DNA from: Rhodospirillales bacterium
GTDB taxonomy: Bacteria; Pseudomonadota; Alphaproteobacteria; UBA8366; JADFVY01
Assembly: GCA_020356105.1 (NCBI GenBank)
Contig: CP070634.1
Span: 973,198 to 1,020,964, forward strand
DNA length: 47,767 nucleotides
Direction of reading: 5' to 3'
In this document: piece after piece, positions 9,430 to 17,862 of the stretch
Layout: each line of letters opens with the position of its first letter
Numbering within the stretch: the first letter of the stretch is position 1
The notes under the pieces: generated by a model
Told to the model about the DNA's origin: nothing
What the model saw: the letters and a program-made list of their open reading frames with translations, nothing else
The model's database searches: none
Made by a program: the position numbers and the translations under genes

Positions 9430-10002
9430 TTATCCGCCGGCCCGTTCGATGCGCGCCAGCTGCGCCTCGATGGCGACCGCCACCTCGCGCGAAGTCGGCT
9501 CGGTCCGCGTCGAGAACCAGGCCACGAGTTCGCCTTCGGGCCCGATCAGGTATTTGTGGAAGTTCCAGCGTGGTGTGCCGGCATCACCGACCTCGCCCGC
9601 GGCCCACATGTAGAAGGGATGCGCGTCCGCGCCCTTGACCGGGACCTTGCTCGTCATCGGGAAATCGATGTTGAAATTGACCTCGCAGAACCGCTTGATC
9701 TCGTCTTCCGTGCCCGGCTCCTGGTTGCCGAAATCGTTCGACGGCACGCCGAGCACGATGAGGCCGCGGTCGCGGTAGCGCTCCCAGACCGCCTGCAGCC
9801 CGTCATACTGGCGGGTAAAACCGCAGAATGACGCCGTGTTGACGACCATCACCACCTTGCCGCGGAAGTCCGACAACGGCAGCGGGCCGCCCTCGATCGC
9901 GGTGAAGGTAAAGTCATGCGCCGATTTCCCGGCACCTTCGGCGCTCGCGGGCGCGGCGGCCGCCACCAGCCCCAGCAAAATCATGATTGCACGCATGCGC
10001 AT
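9430..10002 (-). CDS. Periplasmic glutathione peroxidase (Cys type)
   Basis: The protein has 190 residues from the chosen start and a cleavable signal peptide (MILLGLVAAAAPASA). The glutathione peroxidase core shows the active-site NTASFCGFT motif with cysteine in place of selenocysteine, and the distal WNFHKYLI tryptophan-asparagine motif. A glutamine is expected about 35 residues after the cysteine, and the GVPSNDFGNQEPG segment supplies it. It should reduce hydroperoxides, probably with thioredoxin-like reductants. The ATG at 10002 has an AGGGG Shine-Dalgarno sequence seven bases upstream, so it is preferred over the ATG at 10017. In Rhodobacter, a gpx belongs to the singlet-oxygen sigma-factor regulon, relevant to the rpoE and rpoH genes in this window. 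Confidence 0.92.
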   Translation of the reverse strand: MRMRAIMILLGLVAAAAPASAEGAGKSAHDFTFTAIEGGPLPLSDFRGKVVMVVNTASFCGFTRQYDGLQAVWERYRDRGLIVLGVPSNDFGNQEPGTEDEIKRFCEVNFNIDFPMTSKVPVKGADAHPFYMWAAGEVGDAGTPRWNFHKYLIGPEGELVAWFSTRTEPTSREVAVAIEAQLARIERAGG

Positions 10003-10133
10003 CTTCGAACCCCTCATTGGTCACATACCAATACATACGGTCTCCGACAGTATCTGGACCAATTGATCCGGAACGGCAACCCAGTGCGTATGCGGTGTCA
10101 GCCGTGCTGCGGTCGATTGAGGGCGATGACGCG

Positions 10134-10769
10134 CTACCGCTCGACCGCGACTACGACCTCGTTGCGCCGCAGGAAGGGCAGCGTCCAGGGCGGGTCGTAG
10201 AAATAGGCGACCGGTTCGGCCGTCGGACGCCAGGGCGTTTCCGCGAGCGCGCGCAGCAACTGCGTCGTCTTCTCGGCCACCGCGTCCCTCCCCCGCGAAC
10301 CGCTGAACCGGAGTGCTGCGACCGTCTGCCCGGGGAGCGCGACGATGCGCACGCGCGGATCGAGGGGCGCCGGCGTCGATTCCAGGTCGAGGCCCGTCGG
10401 CAGGAAGAATCGCATGCGCAGTGTCGCTTCGCCCGTTCGCGCGCTTTCTACCGGCACGGTCATGGCGATCTTTTCCGACGCCGCCGCGGTCTCGACCGGG
10501 GTCGTCATGGCGATCTGCCGGTTTGACCGGTTGGCGCCGGAAATATAGTCGAACAGCAACCGGAAAGCGGCGTTGCGGGCCGGCTTCTCGTCGGCGGCCT
10601 CGACAAGCGCCTCCGCGGCGACACGCGGCGGGTAGCGCCGCACCTCGATGGTCTCGACCAGCTGCGCGACGATCTCGTAGGTCGGCTGTTCTGTGCCGGA
10701 GCGGATGCCGAACACGGAGCAGCCGGAGATTAGAAGGGACATGGCGATGATGTGTGCGGTGCGTTGCAT
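10134..10769 (-). CDS. SOUL family haem-binding lipoprotein
   Basis: This 211-residue protein begins with a lipoprotein signal peptide, with lipobox LISGC and Cys17 as the likely lipidated residue. The body is a SOUL/HBP domain: YEIVAQLVETIEVRRYPPR, a core IAMTTPVE repeated as IAMTVPVE, and AALRFSGSRG. SOUL proteins bind haem or other tetrapyrroles. The ATG at 10769 is chosen because the signal peptide starts there. A frame open to 10919 adds an arginine-rich segment that would block export. It may be the first gene of the minus-strand run leading to tspO, separated from gpx by about 130 bases. Confidence 0.88.
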   Translation of the reverse strand: MQRTAHIIAMSLLISGCSVFGIRSGTEQPTYEIVAQLVETIEVRRYPPRVAAEALVEAADEKPARNAAFRLLFDYISGANRSNRQIAMTTPVETAAASEKIAMTVPVESARTGEATLRMRFFLPTGLDLESTPAPLDPRVRIVALPGQTVAALRFSGSRGRDAVAEKTTQLLRALAETPWRPTAEPVAYFYDPPWTLPFLRRNEVVVAVER

Positions 10770-10921
10770 TTCTCTGGGGATACGTGCGCGGCGCGGCGCC
10801 GGATTACTGCGCACGCGGCAAAGTATTGCGGCCCCGGCCGGTGCGCGCCGTGCTGTGCGCCGTGAGGCCGCGCTGAACGGAGCGGAAAACGCCCGTGCAT
10901 GGTGTCGGACACGCGCCATCG

Positions 10922-11055: not shown

Positions 11056-11556
11056 ATGGTCGATTTCCTGCGCGATTTCCTGTTTCGTCGCAAGGGCGCG
11101 GCGCCCGAGGGGGCGTCCGGCCACGGTGAGGCTGAGCTGCGTCTTGCCGCGGCGGCGCTGATGGTCGAGGCGGCCAAGCTGGATGGCGCCTTCGAGGATG
11201 CCGAGCGCGGTCGAATCGCCACAATCCTAGGCGATCGCTTCGCAATGAATGCGGATGATATCGCCACCCTGATCGCGGCGGCCGATGCGGAAACCGATCT
11301 TGCCGGCGGACTCTATGGCTTCACCCGCACGGTGCGCGACAATTTCGATCATGCCGAGCGCGTGGCGATGATCGAGATGCTGTGGGATGTCGCGTACGCG
11401 GACGGCGTCCTGCACGATTTCGAAGCAAACATGTTGCGCAGGGTGGCCGGACTTTTGTATGTGACGGACCAGGAAAGCGGCGCGGCGCGCAAACGGGTGC
11501 TGGACCGACTTTCCGGCGAGGCCGGCACGGCCGGTGGGCAAGGGACGAAGAGCTGA
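11056..11556 (+). CDS. TerB family tellurite-resistance-like protein
   Basis: This 166-residue protein shows a TerB-like all-helical domain at about residues 25-150. An [20 protein letters not shown] segment with the DG-F/E acidic turn is repeated in [20 protein letters not shown]. Family members bind metal ions through such acidic sites and are linked to tellurite or envelope stress, but most are uncharacterised. The start at 11056 ([10 protein letters not shown]) is favoured over the frame start at 10999. It ends 13 bases before fdxA, so the two are probably co-transcribed. Confidence 0.8.
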
Positions 11557-11569
11557 GGAGAGGGCCGGC

Positions 11570-11905
11570 ATGACCTATGTCGTCACCGAAAACTGCATCC
11601 GCTGCAAGTACATGGATTGCGTTGAAGTGTGTCCCGTCGACTGCTTTTACGAAGGCGAGAACATGCTGGTCATCCATCCAGATGAATGCATCGACTGCGG
11701 CGTCTGTGAGCCGGAATGCCCGGTCGAGGCAATCCTGCCGGACACCGACAGCGAGGGCGAGGACTGGGTGGAAATGAATCGAGAGTATTCAGAGAAATGG
11801 CCCAACATCACCCGCAAGAAGGATCCGCCGGACGACGCCGATGACTGGAAGGATGTGTCCGATAAATTCGAGAAGTATTTCAGTCCGGAGCCGCCGAAGT
11901 CCTGA
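11570..11905 (+). CDS. fdxA: Ferredoxin FdxA (7Fe type)
   Basis: This 111-residue protein begins [20 protein letters not shown]. Two cysteine clusters are visible: Cys9, 12, 17 and 21 with proline, then [12 protein letters not shown] near residues 40-51. These fit a [3Fe-4S]/[4Fe-4S] ferredoxin of the FdxA family, a soluble electron carrier of uncertain partners. The acidic C-terminal tail of about 45 residues is typical of the alphaproteobacterial form. A GAGGAG Shine-Dalgarno sequence supports the ATG at 11570. The downstream neighbour is CarD, a pairing commonly seen in alphaproteobacteria. Confidence 0.96.
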
Positions 11906-12251
11906 TCCGGCGTGCCGCCTTTGCTGTGAGGTGGCCCGGATTAGGCGACCACTGAACAACCCCCTGTAAATCGACGAAAAAACCTGTTATATTATTACCC
12001 CGTATAGCGAGCGAGGAAAGCGCTCGCCCGTTCCGCGGGGCGGTGGTCGGGCGGGATGATTCCTGCATAACATTGAGCGGACGGAATGGTCGCGGCCTGA
12101 GCCTTGGAATGGCCGGGTCGCGAGGGTCGGCGCAGAGCGCGCTGGCACGGGAGAGGTTGTGATTTCCGAACCGCTTGTATGGCGTGCAGGAATTGTTGTC
12201 CACCGCGCGGTAGCCGTGTTGACGATTGGTATCAAGGGGCTGAAGGACCAA
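11906..12251. other. fdxA-carD intergenic region
   Basis: No gene is supported in these 346 bases. The stretch around 11965-12005 is unusually AT-rich for this genome (a run of A followed by GTTATATTATTA), and a 7-base-pair hairpin with a 7-base loop sits at 12007-12027 (GCGAGCG/CGCTCGC). Together they could be the carD promoter and a structured leader of more than 200 bases. No -35 element of good quality is visible, so this is tentative. An in-frame ATG at 12159 would extend CarD but has no Shine-Dalgarno sequence and no family-like residues. Confidence 0.4.
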
Positions 12252-12758
12252 ATGAGTGGGACAATTGACGCGTTGAAGTTTCGCGGCGGTGAATGGGTGG
12301 TCTACCCCACCCACGGCGTCGGAAAGGTGGCCGGCATTGAAGAGGCGGAGATCGCCGGATGTCGTCTGGAGCTGATCGTGATCCACTTCGACAAGGATCG
12401 GATGACGCTGCGGATTCCAGTCGCCAAGGCGCGCAATTCAGGCCTGCGCCCGCTGTCGTCGCGCGACCAGATGAAGAGCGCCCTGAAGACGCTGAAGGGG
12501 CGCAGCCGCGTCAAGCGAACGATGTGGAGCCGCCGGGCCCAGGAATATGAGGCCAAGATCAATTCGGGCGATCCGGTGTCGATCGCCGAGGTGGTCCGCG
12601 ACCTGCACCGCAACGCCGACCAGCCGGACCAGTCCTACAGCGAACGGCAGATCTACCAGGCCGCCCTCGATCGCCTGGTGCGGGAATTCGCAGCGGTCGA
12701 GAACCTCGACGAGAGCGCGGCGACGGAGAAACTCGAGGCGATGCTCAAGGCTGCTTGA
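12252..12758 (+). CDS. carD: CarD/CdnL family RNA polymerase-binding regulator
   Basis: The protein has 168 residues. An N-terminal Tudor-like RNA-polymerase-interaction domain (FRGGEWVVYPTHGVGKVAGI at about residues 10-29) binds the beta subunit. A helical C-terminal half (MWSRRAQEYEAKINSGDP, near residue 93) contacts promoter DNA. CarD/CdnL stabilises open complexes, especially at ribosomal promoters. The ATG at 12252 has an AAGGA Shine-Dalgarno sequence and starts just before the conserved domain. A phosphatase-like gene follows after 63 bases. Confidence 0.95.
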   Translation: MSGTIDALKFRGGEWVVYPTHGVGKVAGIEEAEIAGCRLELIVIHFDKDRMTLRIPVAKARNSGLRPLSSRDQMKSALKTLKGRSRVKRTMWSRRAQEYEAKINSGDPVSIAEVVRDLHRNADQPDQSYSERQIYQAALDRLVREFAAVENLDESAATEKLEAMLKAA

Positions 12759-12821: not shown

Positions 12822-13628
12822 ATGCGCGATTTGACATCCATTGCCGAAATCCGTGGTGCCCCGCGGATCTGGGCAGTGGGCGCGGTGCACGGCGAGGCGA
12901 GCCGGCTTAAGACTCTTCACGATCGGCTCGAGCCTCGTCTCGGTGCGCGCGACGCGCTGGTCTACCTCGGCAATTATCTGGGGCACGGGCCGGATGTCGT
13001 CGGGACGGTCGAGGAGTTGCTGGCCTTCCGACGTCGGGTTCTCGCGCATCCGCCGCTGCGGGTGGCGGCCGACGTTATCTACCTACGGGGCAGCCAGGAG
13101 GAAATGTGGCAGAAATTATTGCAGCTGCAGTTCGCCAGTGATCCACGGGCGATCCTAGCTTGGGTGCTGTCGCGCGGTGTGGAGGCTACGTTGCGGGCCT
13201 ATGGCGGCGATCCGGACGCCGGGGCACGGGCGGCGGCGGGAGGCACCATACTGCTCAACGAATGGACCCGGACATTGCGCGATTCGGTGCGCAGGTATCC
13301 GGGGCACGATGCCTTCTTCGCAGGCTTGAAGCGGGCCGCGGTCAGCAATGGAGAGGGCCGACTGCTCTTCGTCAATTGCGGCATCGATACGCAGCGGCCG
13401 CTGGCCGCACAGAGCGATGCCTTCTGGTGGGCCGGACGAAGCTTTTCGGAGATCACCGAACCGTATGAGGATTACCGTCGTGTCGTGCGAGGCTACGATC
13501 CGGATCATAACGGTTTTGCTGAAACAGCCTGCACGGCCACGGTCGATGGCGGGTGTGGATTTGGCGGCCCGTTGACGGCGGCCTGTTTCGATCCGGCCGG
13601 CGCGGTCGTCGACCGTATCGATATCTAG
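12822..13628 (+). CDS. Metallophosphatase-fold protein lacking its metal ligands (predicted pseudophosphatase)
   Basis: This 268-residue protein follows the layout of PrpE/PP2A-like calcineurin phosphoesterases, but the metal-binding residues are replaced. The GDxHG motif reads VGAVHGE (Asp to Ala). The GDxxDRG motif reads LGNYLGHGPD (Asp to Asn and the DRG lost). The GNHE motif reads LRGSQEEM. The late histidine motif reads LFVNCGID where His is expected. The spacing and surrounding strands (ALVYLGNYLGHG, DVIYLRGS) are intact and the frame is uninterrupted, so this is a maintained protein rather than a decaying gene. It cannot bind the two-metal centre as the family normally does. It may act as a scaffold or binding protein. 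It sits between carD and rpoH. Confidence 0.75.
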   Translation: MRDLTSIAEIRGAPRIWAVGAVHGEASRLKTLHDRLEPRLGARDALVYLGNYLGHGPDVVGTVEELLAFRRRVLAHPPLRVAADVIYLRGSQEEMWQKLLQLQFASDPRAILAWVLSRGVEATLRAYGGDPDAGARAAAGGTILLNEWTRTLRDSVRRYPGHDAFFAGLKRAAVSNGEGRLLFVNCGIDTQRPLAAQSDAFWWAGRSFSEITEPYEDYRRVVRGYDPDHNGFAETACTATVDGGCGFGGPLTAACFDPAGAVVDRIDI

Positions 13629-13716
13629 CGCTTTTACCCGCGGCCACGCGCCGGGCTCGCTGATCCGATTGCGCCGGACGCGATGTGTCGGGATGCGTGA
13701 ACTGTGTCAAAAAAAG

Positions 13717-13747
13717 TTGACTGGCGCACTGAGCTTTTTGCTATCAT
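13717..13747 (+). promoter_or_regulatory. Candidate promoter of rpoH
   Basis: TTGACT at 13717-13722 is followed after 19 bases by TATCAT at 13742-13747, both 5 of 6 to the housekeeping consensus. The spacing is longer than ideal, and a GCTATC at 17 bases is an alternative -10. The local DNA is markedly AT-rich for this genome. The start of rpoH is about 70 bases downstream. Confidence 0.45.
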
Positions 13748-13815
13748 TATCGTATAAGGGTTTGCAACCAGACTCAACATGGAGAGCGCCCAACGGCTGC
13801 TTCTTAGCTTGAACC

Positions 13816-14700
13816 ATGGCTCATATCGACGATCCCAAAACCCAGCGGGCAAATCTGAATTATATCAAGACTTCGATGAAGGAGCCGCTCCTTACGCGCG
13901 AGCGCGAGTTCGAACTCGCGCGGCGCTGGCGCGAGGACGGGGACGAGGCGGCACTGCACGAGCTGGTGCGCAGTTACTTGCGGTTAGTTGTCAGCACCGC
14001 GTCCCGGTTCCGCAATTACGGCCTGCCGATGGGCGATCTCGTTCAGGAGGGCAATGTCGGGCTGATGCAGGCGGCCGCCCGCTTTGAGCCGCAGCGCGAG
14101 GTGCGGTTCTCGACCTATGCCACCTGGTGGATTCGCTCTGCCATGCAAGATTACGTGCTGCGGAACTGGTCGATCGTCCGGACCGGTACGACGGCGGCGC
14201 AGAAGTCGCTGTTCTTCAACCTGCGTCGGTTGCGTGCCCGGATCGACGACGCATCGGGCACGCGTCTTAGCGACGAAGGTCGCCAAATCATTGCTGAGCA
14301 ATTGAACGTCGATGTTGGTGAGGTCGAATCGATGGAGGTCCGGCTGGGTGGTTTCGACCAGTCGCTCAACGCCCCCCTCTCGGATTCTTCGGACGACGAC
14401 TGGATGGATTTTCTGCCGGACACGGGCCCGAGCCCGGAATCCGTCGCCATCGGCATGCGCGATGCCGAAACCCGGTCGCGCTGGCTGGCTGAGGCGCTGC
14501 GCGAGCTCAGCCCCCGCGAACAGACGATCATCCGCCAGCGACGCTTGACCGATGAGGGTGCAACGCTGGAGGAACTGGGGCGCGAACTCGGCGTCAGCAA
14601 GGAGCGCGTGCGTCAGCTGGAGAGCCGGGCTCTCGGGAAGCTGAAGGATTCGATGCTGCGGCGCATCGAGCTGCCGGGCGATATCCTTCTGGAAACGTGA
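13816..14700 (+). CDS. rpoH: RNA polymerase sigma-32 family factor (RpoHII type)
   Basis: This 294-residue sigma-70 family protein contains region 2 (RLVVSTASRFRNYGLPMGDL, FSTYATWWIRSAMQDYVLRN), an RpoH-box-like segment (AAQKSLFFNLRRLRARI) and region 4 (LEELGRELGVSKERVRQLES). The RpoH box places it in the heat-shock sigma family. The wording MQDYVLRNWSIVRTGTT and LNAPLSD is closer to what I remember of RpoHII than RpoHI. RpoHII acts in the singlet-oxygen response of Rhodobacter downstream of RpoE. This fits the rpoE-chrR pair 5 kb away. It ends in front of a bidirectional terminator. Confidence 0.9.
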   Translation: MAHIDDPKTQRANLNYIKTSMKEPLLTREREFELARRWREDGDEAALHELVRSYLRLVVSTASRFRNYGLPMGDLVQEGNVGLMQAAARFEPQREVRFSTYATWWIRSAMQDYVLRNWSIVRTGTTAAQKSLFFNLRRLRARIDDASGTRLSDEGRQIIAEQLNVDVGEVESMEVRLGGFDQSLNAPLSDSSDDDWMDFLPDTGPSPESVAIGMRDAETRSRWLAEALRELSPREQTIIRQRRLTDEGATLEELGRELGVSKERVRQLESRALGKLKDSMLRRIELPGDILLET

Positions 14701-14706
14701 CGATGC

Positions 14707-14728
14707 CCGGCCGCTGACCGGCCGGTTT
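14707..14728. terminator. Hairpin between convergent rpoH and M48 protease genes
   Basis: CCGGCCG at 14707-14713 pairs with CGGCCGG at 14719-14725 across a CTGAC loop and is followed by TTT at 14726-14728. The position between two convergent genes suits a transcription terminator for rpoH. The U-run is short, so efficiency is uncertain. Confidence 0.55.
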
Positions 14729-16197
14729 CAATATCGGACCAGTTTGACCGGCTGACCGGGCTCGAGGGCGGCGGCCGGTCCAAGCCCATTGAGAATGCTG
14801 AACCGCTCTCTGGCGTGGTCGGCGAACTTATTCAGCGGCACGATCGATTCGAGCGTATCGCCTTGTGCGGCCGTAATGATGCGCACGCGGCGGGGACGTA
14901 GCGACGCAGCCTCATCCTCGTCGAGCGTCCGGAAGCTATAGGTCGCCTTGCGAAGGTCTTCGCTCGCATGCGCGCTGCTCTGTGCTGGCACGAGGAACAG
15001 GAATCGATAGATCGTTCCGGTTCCGGCGCGAACCGCAACGAGACGGTAGTCCATCGGGTGCTGCTGGTCCTCGCTCCGCAGCCATCCGGTGGCGGCATCC
15101 AGGCCATTGATTTGGAACCCGCGGACATCGGCCAAGGGGAGCCCTTCGGCCCAGATATTGGTCAGATATTCGGTCACCGAACCGGTGATCAGCCGGCGCG
15201 ATGGTTCGAACAGGATCGCTGCCCCGTCGGGCCCGAGCGCGGTGACGCGGTGGCTGTCGGCGTACATTGCATAACCCGGCGGCACCGTGAAGGTGACCCG
15301 GCGAATTGGATGCGCATAGGTGCGGCCGATCACGAAACCGTATTCCTGCCGGTTGCCGTACAGCAGGCCGTCAATGGCATTGAGATAGACTGTAACGCCG
15401 AGCATCCCGCCTGATCGGCCGGCACCTTCGATCAGGCCCGCCACCTGTTCGATCCGCGCCCCGGTCAGCGGATGGGTCGAGGCGTAGCCGTGCGAATCCT
15501 TCCGCGGCGCGCCGAGGCCGGCGACCCGTGCATCGAGATCCCTCTGCGCCTCAAGCTTTCGCAGGAAATCCGTCATGCCCCGCGAATCGTAACCAGCCGC
15601 CGTGAGATACCGCAGACCGAGCTCGTCGGCTTCGAGCTCCTGGTCCTGGCTGAAGCCGCCGAACGCCAGCCGGATCCCGACGGCGGCCGTGTCGCCGAGG
15701 ACCGGCACCTCGAAATCGCAGCCGAAGGCGGCGCAGAGTCTGTCTTCCGCCTTCATTCCGCTCAGTCGCTGCGCGCCGTGTCGTGCGTTGATATGCGCCA
15801 GCTCGTGGCTCAACACCCCGGCCAGTTCGGCCTCGCTGCTCAGCAGCGCGAGCAGCCCGCGGGTGACATAGACGTACCCCCCCGACACCGCAAAGGCGTT
15901 GACCGTCGGCGAGTCGAGAACCGTGAAGCGATATTCGAAATCCTGCAGCTCGGTGATCGCGACGATCCTGTTGCCGACCTGTTCGACATAGGTCGCCAGC
16001 GCCGGGTCATAGTAGACGCCGCCGAATTCGGCCAGCACCTGCGGGTGGGTCTTGCGGCCGATTTCCGCTTCCTCCTCGGTCGATACCAGCATGAAATCGA
16101 CGGTGCCGGTGGCGGGATTGATCGCGCAACCGCCGATCAACATCTGCAGCGCTGCGGCAAACACCGCGCTGACCCGGCCGCGGCAAGATCGAATCAT
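14728..16197 (-). CDS. M48 family metalloprotease, lipoprotein, with LysM-like C-terminus
   Basis: This 489-residue protein has a lipoprotein signal peptide (lipobox LIGGC, Cys24) and an M48 (BepA/YfgC-like) zinc protease domain. The HExxH motif is HELAH at 131-135 and the third zinc ligand lies in the QELEADELGLRYL helix. The C-terminal 50 residues (RIITAAQGDTLESIV, then RFSILNGLG and GQPVKLVRY) look like a divergent LysM or LysM-like segment that could bind peptidoglycan. It probably acts at the outer membrane or periplasm in protein quality control. The ATG at 16197 overlaps the stop of the paralogue upstream (ATGA). One protein is about 40% similar to the other by eye. Confidence 0.88.
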   Translation of the reverse strand: MIRSCRGRVSAVFAAALQMLIGGCAINPATGTVDFMLVSTEEEAEIGRKTHPQVLAEFGGVYYDPALATYVEQVGNRIVAITELQDFEYRFTVLDSPTVNAFAVSGGYVYVTRGLLALLSSEAELAGVLSHELAHINARHGAQRLSGMKAEDRLCAAFGCDFEVPVLGDTAAVGIRLAFGGFSQDQELEADELGLRYLTAAGYDSRGMTDFLRKLEAQRDLDARVAGLGAPRKDSHGYASTHPLTGARIEQVAGLIEGAGRSGGMLGVTVYLNAIDGLLYGNRQEYGFVIGRTYAHPIRRVTFTVPPGYAMYADSHRVTALGPDGAAILFEPSRRLITGSVTEYLTNIWAEGLPLADVRGFQINGLDAATGWLRSEDQQHPMDYRLVAVRAGTGTIYRFLFLVPAQSSAHASEDLRKATYSFRTLDEDEAASLRPRRVRIITAAQGDTLESIVPLNKFADHARERFSILNGLGPAAALEPGQPVKLVRY

Positions 16198-17663
16198 CGT
16201 TCGACCACGAGTTTGACTCTTGCGCCGGCGCGCAACGGTTCGCTCGCGCCGAGGCCGTTCATCACCCGGAACCGCTCCTGCTGCAGCGACTCGAACGGCG
16301 AACGCCGGGCCAGGCCGTACACGGTATCGCCGCTGCGCACTTCAACGACATTGAGCTGCCATGGGCGCACGGCCGAGACCTCCGCCCGGCTGATCGGACG
16401 GAAACTGAACACCGTTTCACGCAGCGCCGCCATCAGGGTGGACGCCGAGTCGCGAGGCGCCGCGCCGAGGAAGCGGTAGATCCGCCCCGCGTCGAACCGG
16501 ATCGCAACCAGCCCGAACTGCACCGTCCCGGATCGGACGGCGACGGTCGCCTCGGCGGTCGCGGCAGCCAAGCCGTTCACCGTGACCGGTCTCAGTCCTT
16601 CGAGCGTCAACTCGCGGGCCCAATCCTGCGCGATGTAGCTGGTCATCGGCCCGTCATACGGCTTTTCGGCCGCATCCAGCTGGATCAGCATCCTGGCGGG
16701 GCTGACCGCGATTGCGGCGTCCGGCAGGTTCTTGAGCTGGAAACCGCCGGGCACCTCGAAACGGTATCGTTCGATCGGATGTACGAACACCTGTCCCCGC
16801 ACCAGGCCATGGCGCGGTGAATCGCCGAAAATCATCGAGTCGATGCGGGCAAGATAAGTATCCGATCCCAACTTGCCGCGACCGGCCGCGGCCCCGGCAA
16901 GTTGCATGGCCCGATTGACCCGCTCGACCGTGCGCGGGTGGGTCGACATGATGTCACGCGCGTCCACCTCGTCGGGATCGCGCCCGGCGATCTTGGCCTC
17001 GAGGCGGCTGTTCTCACGCATTTTCGCAAGAAAGCTGGTCATCGCGCCGGCGTCGTACCCCGCGCGGGTGATGTAGCGCACGCCGAGTCGGTCCGCTTCC
17101 AGCTCCTGCTCGCGGGAAAACGGCTGCAGGAACGCGAGGCTGCCGACTCCGGCGACGATACTGCCCACGGTCTCGCTCCCGGTGACCGCGCCGAGCAGCC
17201 CGGCAACGCCGCCGACGATCATGCCCCGGCTGTACCGCTGCGCCGAATGGCGGGCCACCACATGGCCCAGCTCGTGCCCCAGCACCCCCGCGAGTTCGGC
17301 TTCGTCACTGGCCAGCGCCATCAGCCCGCGGGTGATGTAGACATACCCGCCCGGCAGGGCGAAGGCGTTGACGACCGGGCTGTCGAGTACCGTGAAGGTA
17401 TAGTTCTGATCGGGCAGTTCGGTGGTCTTGGCGAGCACACCGCCAATGGTGGCGACATATTGCGCGACCCGCGCATCGTCATAGACGCCGCCGAATTCCT
17501 TGATCACCTCGGGATGCATCTCGGCGCCCAGCTGACGTTCGTCCTGCAGCGACATCAGCATGAAATCCCGCTGCCCGGTTGCGGGGTTGACCGCGCAACC
17601 CGTCGCCCCTAGCGCAAGTGCCGAGCAGGACAAGCCGCAGAAATGTCGTCGCGTGAGTTCCAT
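16194..17663 (-). CDS. M48 family metalloprotease, Tat-type lipoprotein, paralogue of the next gene
   Basis: This 489-residue protein starts MELTRRHFCGLSCSALALGA, a twin-arginine-like signal followed by a lipobox at GATGC (Cys23). The M48 core has HELGH at 130-134 and the ELEADRLGVRYI helix. The C-terminus again carries a LysM-like segment (VEVRSGDTVYGLARRSPFES). The two paralogues have equal lengths and the same domain order, so they arose by tandem duplication. This copy has a Tat-like signal and the other a Sec-like one. An upstream frame start at 17714 is rejected because the twin-arginine signal begins at 17663. Confidence 0.87.
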   Translation of the reverse strand: MELTRRHFCGLSCSALALGATGCAVNPATGQRDFMLMSLQDERQLGAEMHPEVIKEFGGVYDDARVAQYVATIGGVLAKTTELPDQNYTFTVLDSPVVNAFALPGGYVYITRGLMALASDEAELAGVLGHELGHVVARHSAQRYSRGMIVGGVAGLLGAVTGSETVGSIVAGVGSLAFLQPFSREQELEADRLGVRYITRAGYDAGAMTSFLAKMRENSRLEAKIAGRDPDEVDARDIMSTHPRTVERVNRAMQLAGAAAGRGKLGSDTYLARIDSMIFGDSPRHGLVRGQVFVHPIERYRFEVPGGFQLKNLPDAAIAVSPARMLIQLDAAEKPYDGPMTSYIAQDWARELTLEGLRPVTVNGLAAATAEATVAVRSGTVQFGLVAIRFDAGRIYRFLGAAPRDSASTLMAALRETVFSFRPISRAEVSAVRPWQLNVVEVRSGDTVYGLARRSPFESLQQERFRVMNGLGASEPLRAGARVKLVVER

Positions 17664-17862
17664 CACCGTCCTTGGGGCGGCCTTGGCGACACCGCCTTCG
17701 CCATCCATTGCCATGCCGGCAAGACATCGCCGTCCCGTCGAAAAGATTCAAGGCGGAAAATACCGAAGGGAACGTTAATTTTCCGTCTTCCGCACGCAGT
17801 CTTGCGTTTCCGGGCCGCTGCGATACGCTCGCAGCAGTGCGAAAACATGCGAGAAGGCGCGG

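Follow-up and report, generated by a model that had tools for sequence, protein, structure and literature searches.

A gene lying directly behind carD in a Rhodospirillales bacterium is predicted to encode a pseudophosphatase of the PPP type, and its product belongs to what is apparently a widespread and undescribed family of such proteins. Since a phosphatase fold that has lost its catalytic residues has been kept beside carD in many alphaproteobacteria, the protein probably serves in regulation or as a binding partner, and hardly as an enzyme. Most likely it belongs functionally to the CarD transcription unit as a partner without catalysis, and it may bind a nucleotide, or CarD or RNA polymerase.

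The gene lies in a stretch of 47,767 nucleotides (hereafter the window). Table 1 lists it together with its neighbours.

Table 1. The putative pseudophosphatase gene and its neighbours in the window.
11534..11905, + strand: fdxA, encoding a 4Fe-4S ferredoxin, upstream of carD (NCBIfam FdxA_Protbact, 175.2 bits against a cut-off of 135)
12252..12758, + strand: carD, encoding a CdnL-type RNA polymerase-binding factor of 168 aa from the ATG at 12252, with the C-terminus ...LEAMLKAA
12822..13628, + strand: putative pseudophosphatase gene, 268 aa (open reading frame and translation)
13816..14700, + strand: gene for an rpoH-type sigma-32 factor of 294 aa (NCBIfam NF005693, sigma-32, 389.6 bits against a cut-off of 315)

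The preliminary description of this DNA had reported an intact frame between carD and rpoH, and both points hold: the 268-residue translation contains no internal stop, and the gene is separated by 63 bases from the end of carD, on the same strand, and by 187 bases from the start of the rpoH reading frame that follows it. The window CarD matches Pfam CarD_C (4.9e-25) and CarD_TRCF_RID (2.4e-12), both scored on the longer frame 12159-12758. TIGR02392 has two strong matches and a weaker third in the source genome, and the rpoH-type gene next to the pseudophosphatase gene is the second best of these, at 297.5 bits, below the cut-off of 323.1. A scan for consensus promoters and terminators around the pseudophosphatase gene returned nothing exceeding shuffled sequence, so that the case for its co-transcription with carD consists of the 63-base gap and the shared strand.

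Several further features were seen nearby. The gap ahead of rpoH (13629-13815, + strand) is AT-rich and contains TTGACT and TATCAT 19 bases apart; the scan made no call here, and the pair is perhaps rpoH's own promoter. On the minus strand, 14728-17714 holds two tandem genes (489 and 506 aa) with HELAH/HELGH motifs, which we take to be M48-like peptidases with LysM-like tails; relatives of each lie near members of the pseudophosphatase family in 44 of 89 loci. Also on the minus strand, the open reading frame at 10134-10919 resembles that of a SOUL-type haem-binding protein, and the adjoining frame at 9430-10017 is glutathione-peroxidase-like.

Fold and active-site residues of the window protein

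An AlphaFold model of the window protein, built on an alignment of 81 homologues, was predicted with high confidence (pLDDT 94.3, pTM 0.92) and was compared with the PDB using Foldseek and VIA-align 2. The best structural matches include RLPH2 (5vjv; Z 22.0 over 225 residues at 3.0 A), Pnkp phosphatase (4j6o; Z 20.9), a diadenosine tetraphosphatase (2qjc; Z 20.5), lambda phosphatase (1g5b; Z 19.6) and E. coli ApaH (9ojd; Z 18.0), together with the D37A mutant of the latter (9oly; Z 17.9). The metallophosphatase fold proposed in the preliminary description is thus borne out by the predicted model, which confirms that the protein belongs by descent and fold to the PPP/ApaH-like metallophosphatases.

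Searches of Pfam, NCBIfam and the PDB with the lone protein sequence gave matches below threshold only, and an alignment profile was necessary to reach the PDB relatives; with it, 2qjc was matched at E 2e-05. The Pfam scan of the window protein found no family at E <=1, Metallophos (PF00149) included, and among the 81 homologues this model was matched weakly by eight (best E 0.0036). Against NF001204 (ApaH, symmetrical Ap4A hydrolase), the single NCBIfam model that it touches, the window protein scored 15 bits, far below the curated cut-off of 176. The NCBIfam profile touched by most members is that for symmetrical bis(5'-nucleosyl)-tetraphosphatase, matched by 48 of 81 at E <=0.1 (best E 1.2e-05). 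No Pfam or NCBIfam model covers the family, and a search of plasmid records with the window protein gave no match and hence no annotated gene name. A name taken from the weak similarity to metallophosphatases would give a misleading idea of what the gene does.

Ap4A hydrolases are thus among the nearest solved folds, and an Ap4A-hydrolase profile is the one that members touch most often. Both points favour a sharpened version of a regulatory role, in which the dead site is a sensor that binds a dinucleotide polyphosphate or (p)ppGpp uncut and signals to CarD, for example as an adaptor that makes CarD a protease target in starvation. Protein phosphatases are, however, equally similar to the window protein in fold, and we consider an alarmone sensor of this kind unlikely.

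The residues of the site were read against a ligand-complete paralogue, L082, which is encoded elsewhere in the source genome (G000:C1:3739274-3739936) and shares 32% identity with the window protein. The assignment of metal-ligand positions follows general knowledge of the PPP family. Where L082 has the motifs GDIHG, GDYIDRG, GNHED, FVHAG and VHGHT, the window protein has GAVHG (20-24), LGNYLGHG (49-56), LRGSQEEM (88-95) and LFVNCGID (182-189). Five of the six canonical metal ligands are altered (D21A, D51N, N91S, H185N and H225Y) and the catalytic histidine is replaced (H92Q), while D54G and R55H accompany D51N in converting GDxxDRG to GNxxGxG. The histidine of GDxHG, H23, is intact and is the sole canonical ligand left; E93 (the glutamate of GNHE), H162 and D242 are also kept. 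The earlier claim that all recognisable metal ligands had been replaced therefore needs qualifying: the four motifs it quoted are present and five of the six ligands have changed, but H23 stands, and H185 survives in 69 of 145 relatives.

Signature motifs that carry the ligands also define the catalytic PPP family (PMC535813, in the part that treats them), and the window protein departs from each: GAVHG stands for GDXHG, GNYLGHG for GDXXDRG, GSQE for GNH(E/D), and VDGG, at 241-244, for the (I/L/V)D(S/T)G of bacterial-type PPPs. On these residues the protein very probably has no PPP-type phosphatase activity.

Distribution, conservation and common origin of the family

The family was delimited by a profile search of 387 genomes of the class, each at least 90% complete, in which 220 genomes gave matches at E <=0.001. 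Among the matches listed, scores fell into 145 places at 191-424 bits, the next lying at 71 bits and below, and the rows examined at or below 71 bits were catalytic paralogues. All 145 higher-scoring places were taken as the pseudophosphatase family, which is accordingly present in 145 of the 387 genomes. A second sample came from a contig search with patterns derived from the query (80 kept of 89 relatives, 81 with the window's own copy); since it is biased to the query's motifs, the main counts are those of the class sample. In a phylum sample of 299 genomes, nine places scored above 300 bits, all of them in the same class, and rows outside the class reached about 52 bits. Members occur in named records that include Kiloniella, Pelagibius, Azospirillum, Inquilinus, Magnetospirillum, Terasakiella and a Micavibrio MAG. 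Among the family matches listed in the class sample, every frame is intact bar one with an internal TAG (G323). A search of the open-licence literature, covering titles and the starts of abstracts, returned no description of this family or of widespread bacterial PPP pseudophosphatases.

Table 2. Residues at the former active site in the 145 family members and in 49 catalytic paralogues (53 sequences found; one fragment and identical copies dropped).
21: A 94, S 39, P 6, C 4, T 1, one gap, D 0; paralogues D 49
23: H 117, lost in 28 (one of them a gap)
51: N 138, G 7, D 0; paralogues D 49
54: G 144, S 1, D 0; paralogues D 49
91: A 81, Q 15, S 14, G 11 and others, N 5; paralogues N 49
92: Q 135, H 1; paralogues H 49
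93: E 145; paralogues E 47
94: E 141; paralogues E 13
162: H 144; paralogues H 45
185: H 69, N 37, S 25, A 10, P 4; paralogues H 49
223: R 131
225: Y 61, F 52, H 6; paralogues H 49
242: D 140; paralogues D 49
243: mostly G (79) or A (37); paralogues T 48

Table 2 covers the homologues whose collection the preliminary description had proposed, and shows that both metal-binding aspartates are missing throughout the family. Such a loss in all 145 members, with one gap at position 21, lies far beyond chance; the exceptions found in the query-biased contig sample are Asp51 in two and Asn91 in one of 81. The replacement motif (GN..G, RGxQEE) is nearly invariant across the 145. Set against the residue counts of the catalytic paralogues, these figures indicate that the ligand loss is ancestral and fixed and that the motif which replaced the ligands is conserved. 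One sub-clade (L229, L230 and L232) lacks both H23 and the DGG motif and still keeps RGxQEE, which marks this as the most constrained part of the site.

The residues that persist bear on two further readings. Retention of H23, E93 and H185 by 117, 145 and 69 members respectively leaves room for a single weakly bound metal ion or for other chemistry. A different enzyme might be built from H23, E93, H162 and D242 together with the gained R223, Q92 and E94, catalysing another reaction without metal or with one metal, and most of these positions are near-invariant (Table 2), as is often seen in catalytic sites. Yet E93, H162 and D242 are about as conserved in the catalytic paralogues and may be structural, H23 is missing from 28 members, and the neighbouring genes suggest no reaction, all of which makes such an enzyme improbable. 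Still less probable is a divergent metallophosphatase that stays active through substitute ligands. It can point to Vps29-type proteins, in which asparagine occupies the bridging position and another residue serves as ligand (PMC2674652, as described there for the site), and to the members that keep His185 or, in five cases, N91; it has to contend with the loss of D21, D51 and D54 throughout the family and of H92 in 144 of 145, and with the lack in the metal motifs of any new acidic residue unique to the family, E94 excepted, which also occurs in 13 of the 49 catalytic paralogues. Conservation in the alignment likewise makes no alternative acidic ligand evident, since E93 is the ordinary glutamate of GNHE and occurs in the catalytic paralogues too.

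Common origin was addressed with a quick maximum-likelihood tree in which 61 pseudophosphatases were set beside 49 catalytic relatives. The 61 were the window protein and 60 members from the class sample of 145, half of them those with the lowest scores and half drawn at random (30 each). Each group fell on its own side of a single branch, with SH-aLRT support of 100 in this quick tree. Selection on the family is purifying: in 13 of 14 pairs of members dN/dS was 0.006-0.191; the fourteenth pair (L023-L050, 50% identity) lies outside that range at 0.576, a value that is probably saturated. Mean column entropy is 1.88 bits over the whole protein but falls to 1.13 bits in the six former active-site loops, and 17 of 20000 random loop sets were as low, although the loops were picked from knowledge of PPP proteins, part of their conservation is glycine that the fold needs, and folding alone may account for it.

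These data also dispose of a decaying or relaxed phosphatase gene, for which one might cite the loss of catalytic residues and a dN/dS that exceeds the carD value in 11 of 14 pairs. The low dN/dS, the new invariant residues, the wide distribution, the fixed place and the near-universally intact frames among the matches listed all oppose it. Decay of one copy was rejected because the same losses are shared by a monophyletic family of 145 members with low dN/dS, and decay in general is refuted by the family-wide conservation, so that we give it next to no weight. The possibility raised at the outset, that this copy alone had lost its ligands under relaxed selection, is likewise excluded. The reading as a pseudophosphatase stands: the gene is under selection and holds a conserved place beside carD, and its non-catalytic character is predicted from the loss of residues. 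The further suggestion of the preliminary description, that the protein senses a nucleotide or a peptide, stays conjectural.

The carD neighbourhood across genomes

In the class sample, carD immediately preceded the gene, in the same orientation, at 120 of 145 loci. At 24 it was not directly upstream, six of these having carD further upstream, with a start at about 1.5-2.0 kb, and at the remaining locus there was too little upstream sequence for a call. In the query-biased contig sample the corresponding figure was 78 of 80, and beside the catalytic paralogues carD was found at none of six loci examined. Within flanks of 1.5-2.5 kb or less, fdxA lay upstream in 103 and rpoH downstream in 53 of the 145 loci.

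A CarD_C match is present in 144 of the 145 genomes that carry the family (the exception being G193), and in 351 of the 387 class genomes. CarD is thus found with or without the gene and is independent of the pseudophosphatase. Twenty carD loci of genomes that lack the family were also considered; they were the highest in the CarD_C ranking and not a random choice. Here 15 had fdxA upstream, in three rpoH came straight after carD, and the family profile matched none of the open reading frames downstream, one locus (L302) being unable to show absence because its contig ends just past carD. Arrays of fdxA and carD without a pseudophosphatase indicate that the gene is an optional element, which a wider fdxA-carD(-rpoH) array has either gained or lost.

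The C-terminus of CarD is of interest for the alarmone sensor considered above. Like Caulobacter CdnL (PMC11034885), a member of the same CarD family, the window CarD ends in Ala-Ala. The same ending was read in 106 of 126 CarD tails at loci of the pseudophosphatase family. According to the part of that study dealing with turnover, Caulobacter CdnL is cleared by ClpXP through this C-terminal Ala-Ala in a SpoT-linked manner, and a stress-linked, (p)ppGpp-sensitive adaptor is left as a possibility (PMC11034885). The tail is, however, no mark of the family, for CarD also ends in AA at 15 of the 20 loci without it. That study mentions no phosphatase-like partner, its main text being free of the word 'phosphatase', and the word is also absent from the text available for a second study of Caulobacter CdnL (PMC5324124).

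Proposed function and comparison with known systems

Taken as a whole, the best explanation is that the gene product is a non-catalytic PPP pseudophosphatase acting as a binding, CarD-linked regulator, a reading to which we give an even chance. The sequences show that the catalytic histidine and the metal-binding aspartates of an ancestral domain resembling ApaH, PrpE or lambda phosphatase disappeared a single time, ahead of the family's spread. Their place was taken by other conserved residues (A/S21, N51, G54, R89-G-x-Q92-E-E-M, R223 and Y/F225), and the fold was retained. The remodelled site and the helical cap (about residues 91-167) may then bind a ligand or protein without hydrolysis. 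Through this binding the protein could let metabolic or stress state modulate CarD, and with it how stable RNA polymerase open complexes are on growth genes. That the protein acts by binding is somewhat favoured; that it acts on CarD or RNA polymerase and not elsewhere is held more tentatively, at rather under an even chance. Adjacency to carD is not interaction, carD is missing from the position directly upstream in 24 of the 145 members, and there are fdxA-carD neighbourhoods that lack the gene.

The most specific form of the proposal, in which a dedicated CarD regulator reads a nucleotide alarmone in a dead Ap4A-hydrolase-like pocket and gates CarD action or proteolysis, is improbable. If it were true, nutrient or stress state would be linked to open-complex stability through an alarmone-reading pseudophosphatase and CarD. 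CarD/CdnL is described as a global activator of growth genes whose control in starvation is an open question in alphaproteobacteria (PMC11034885, in the passages on its regulation). For the non-catalytic partner favoured here, the fixed place behind carD makes the gene a concrete candidate for CarD/CdnL control.

The family resembles the bacterial PPPs (ApaH/PrpE, lambda Ser/Thr phosphatase and RLPH2) in a near full-length shared fold, with Z of 18-22, and in the order of its motifs, and it shares about 28-37% identity with its catalytic paralogues over most aligned segments. It differs from catalytic PPPs in departing from all four signature motifs, in forming a separate clade and in the position of its gene beside carD.

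Metallophosphatase-fold pseudoenzymes are known in eukaryotes, and in the DNA polymerase B subunits an inactivated calcineurin-like phosphoesterase domain is kept as a structural subunit. Those subunits share a dead phosphoesterase domain with the window family, although they belong to another branch and another process. Vps29 offers an analogy in the way it works: it has a phosphoesterase fold without catalysis, with asparagine in place of the bridging aspartate and phenylalanine at the position of the catalytic histidine (PMC2674652, in its account of the site), and functions as a scaffold (PMC9636581, where its role is outlined). Unlike the window family, Vps29 is eukaryotic, belongs to another branch of the superfamily and is described in that account with metal in its site. 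The role we envisage for the window protein would nevertheless be of the same kind, a protein-interaction subunit built on a phosphatase fold, like Vps29 within the retromer.
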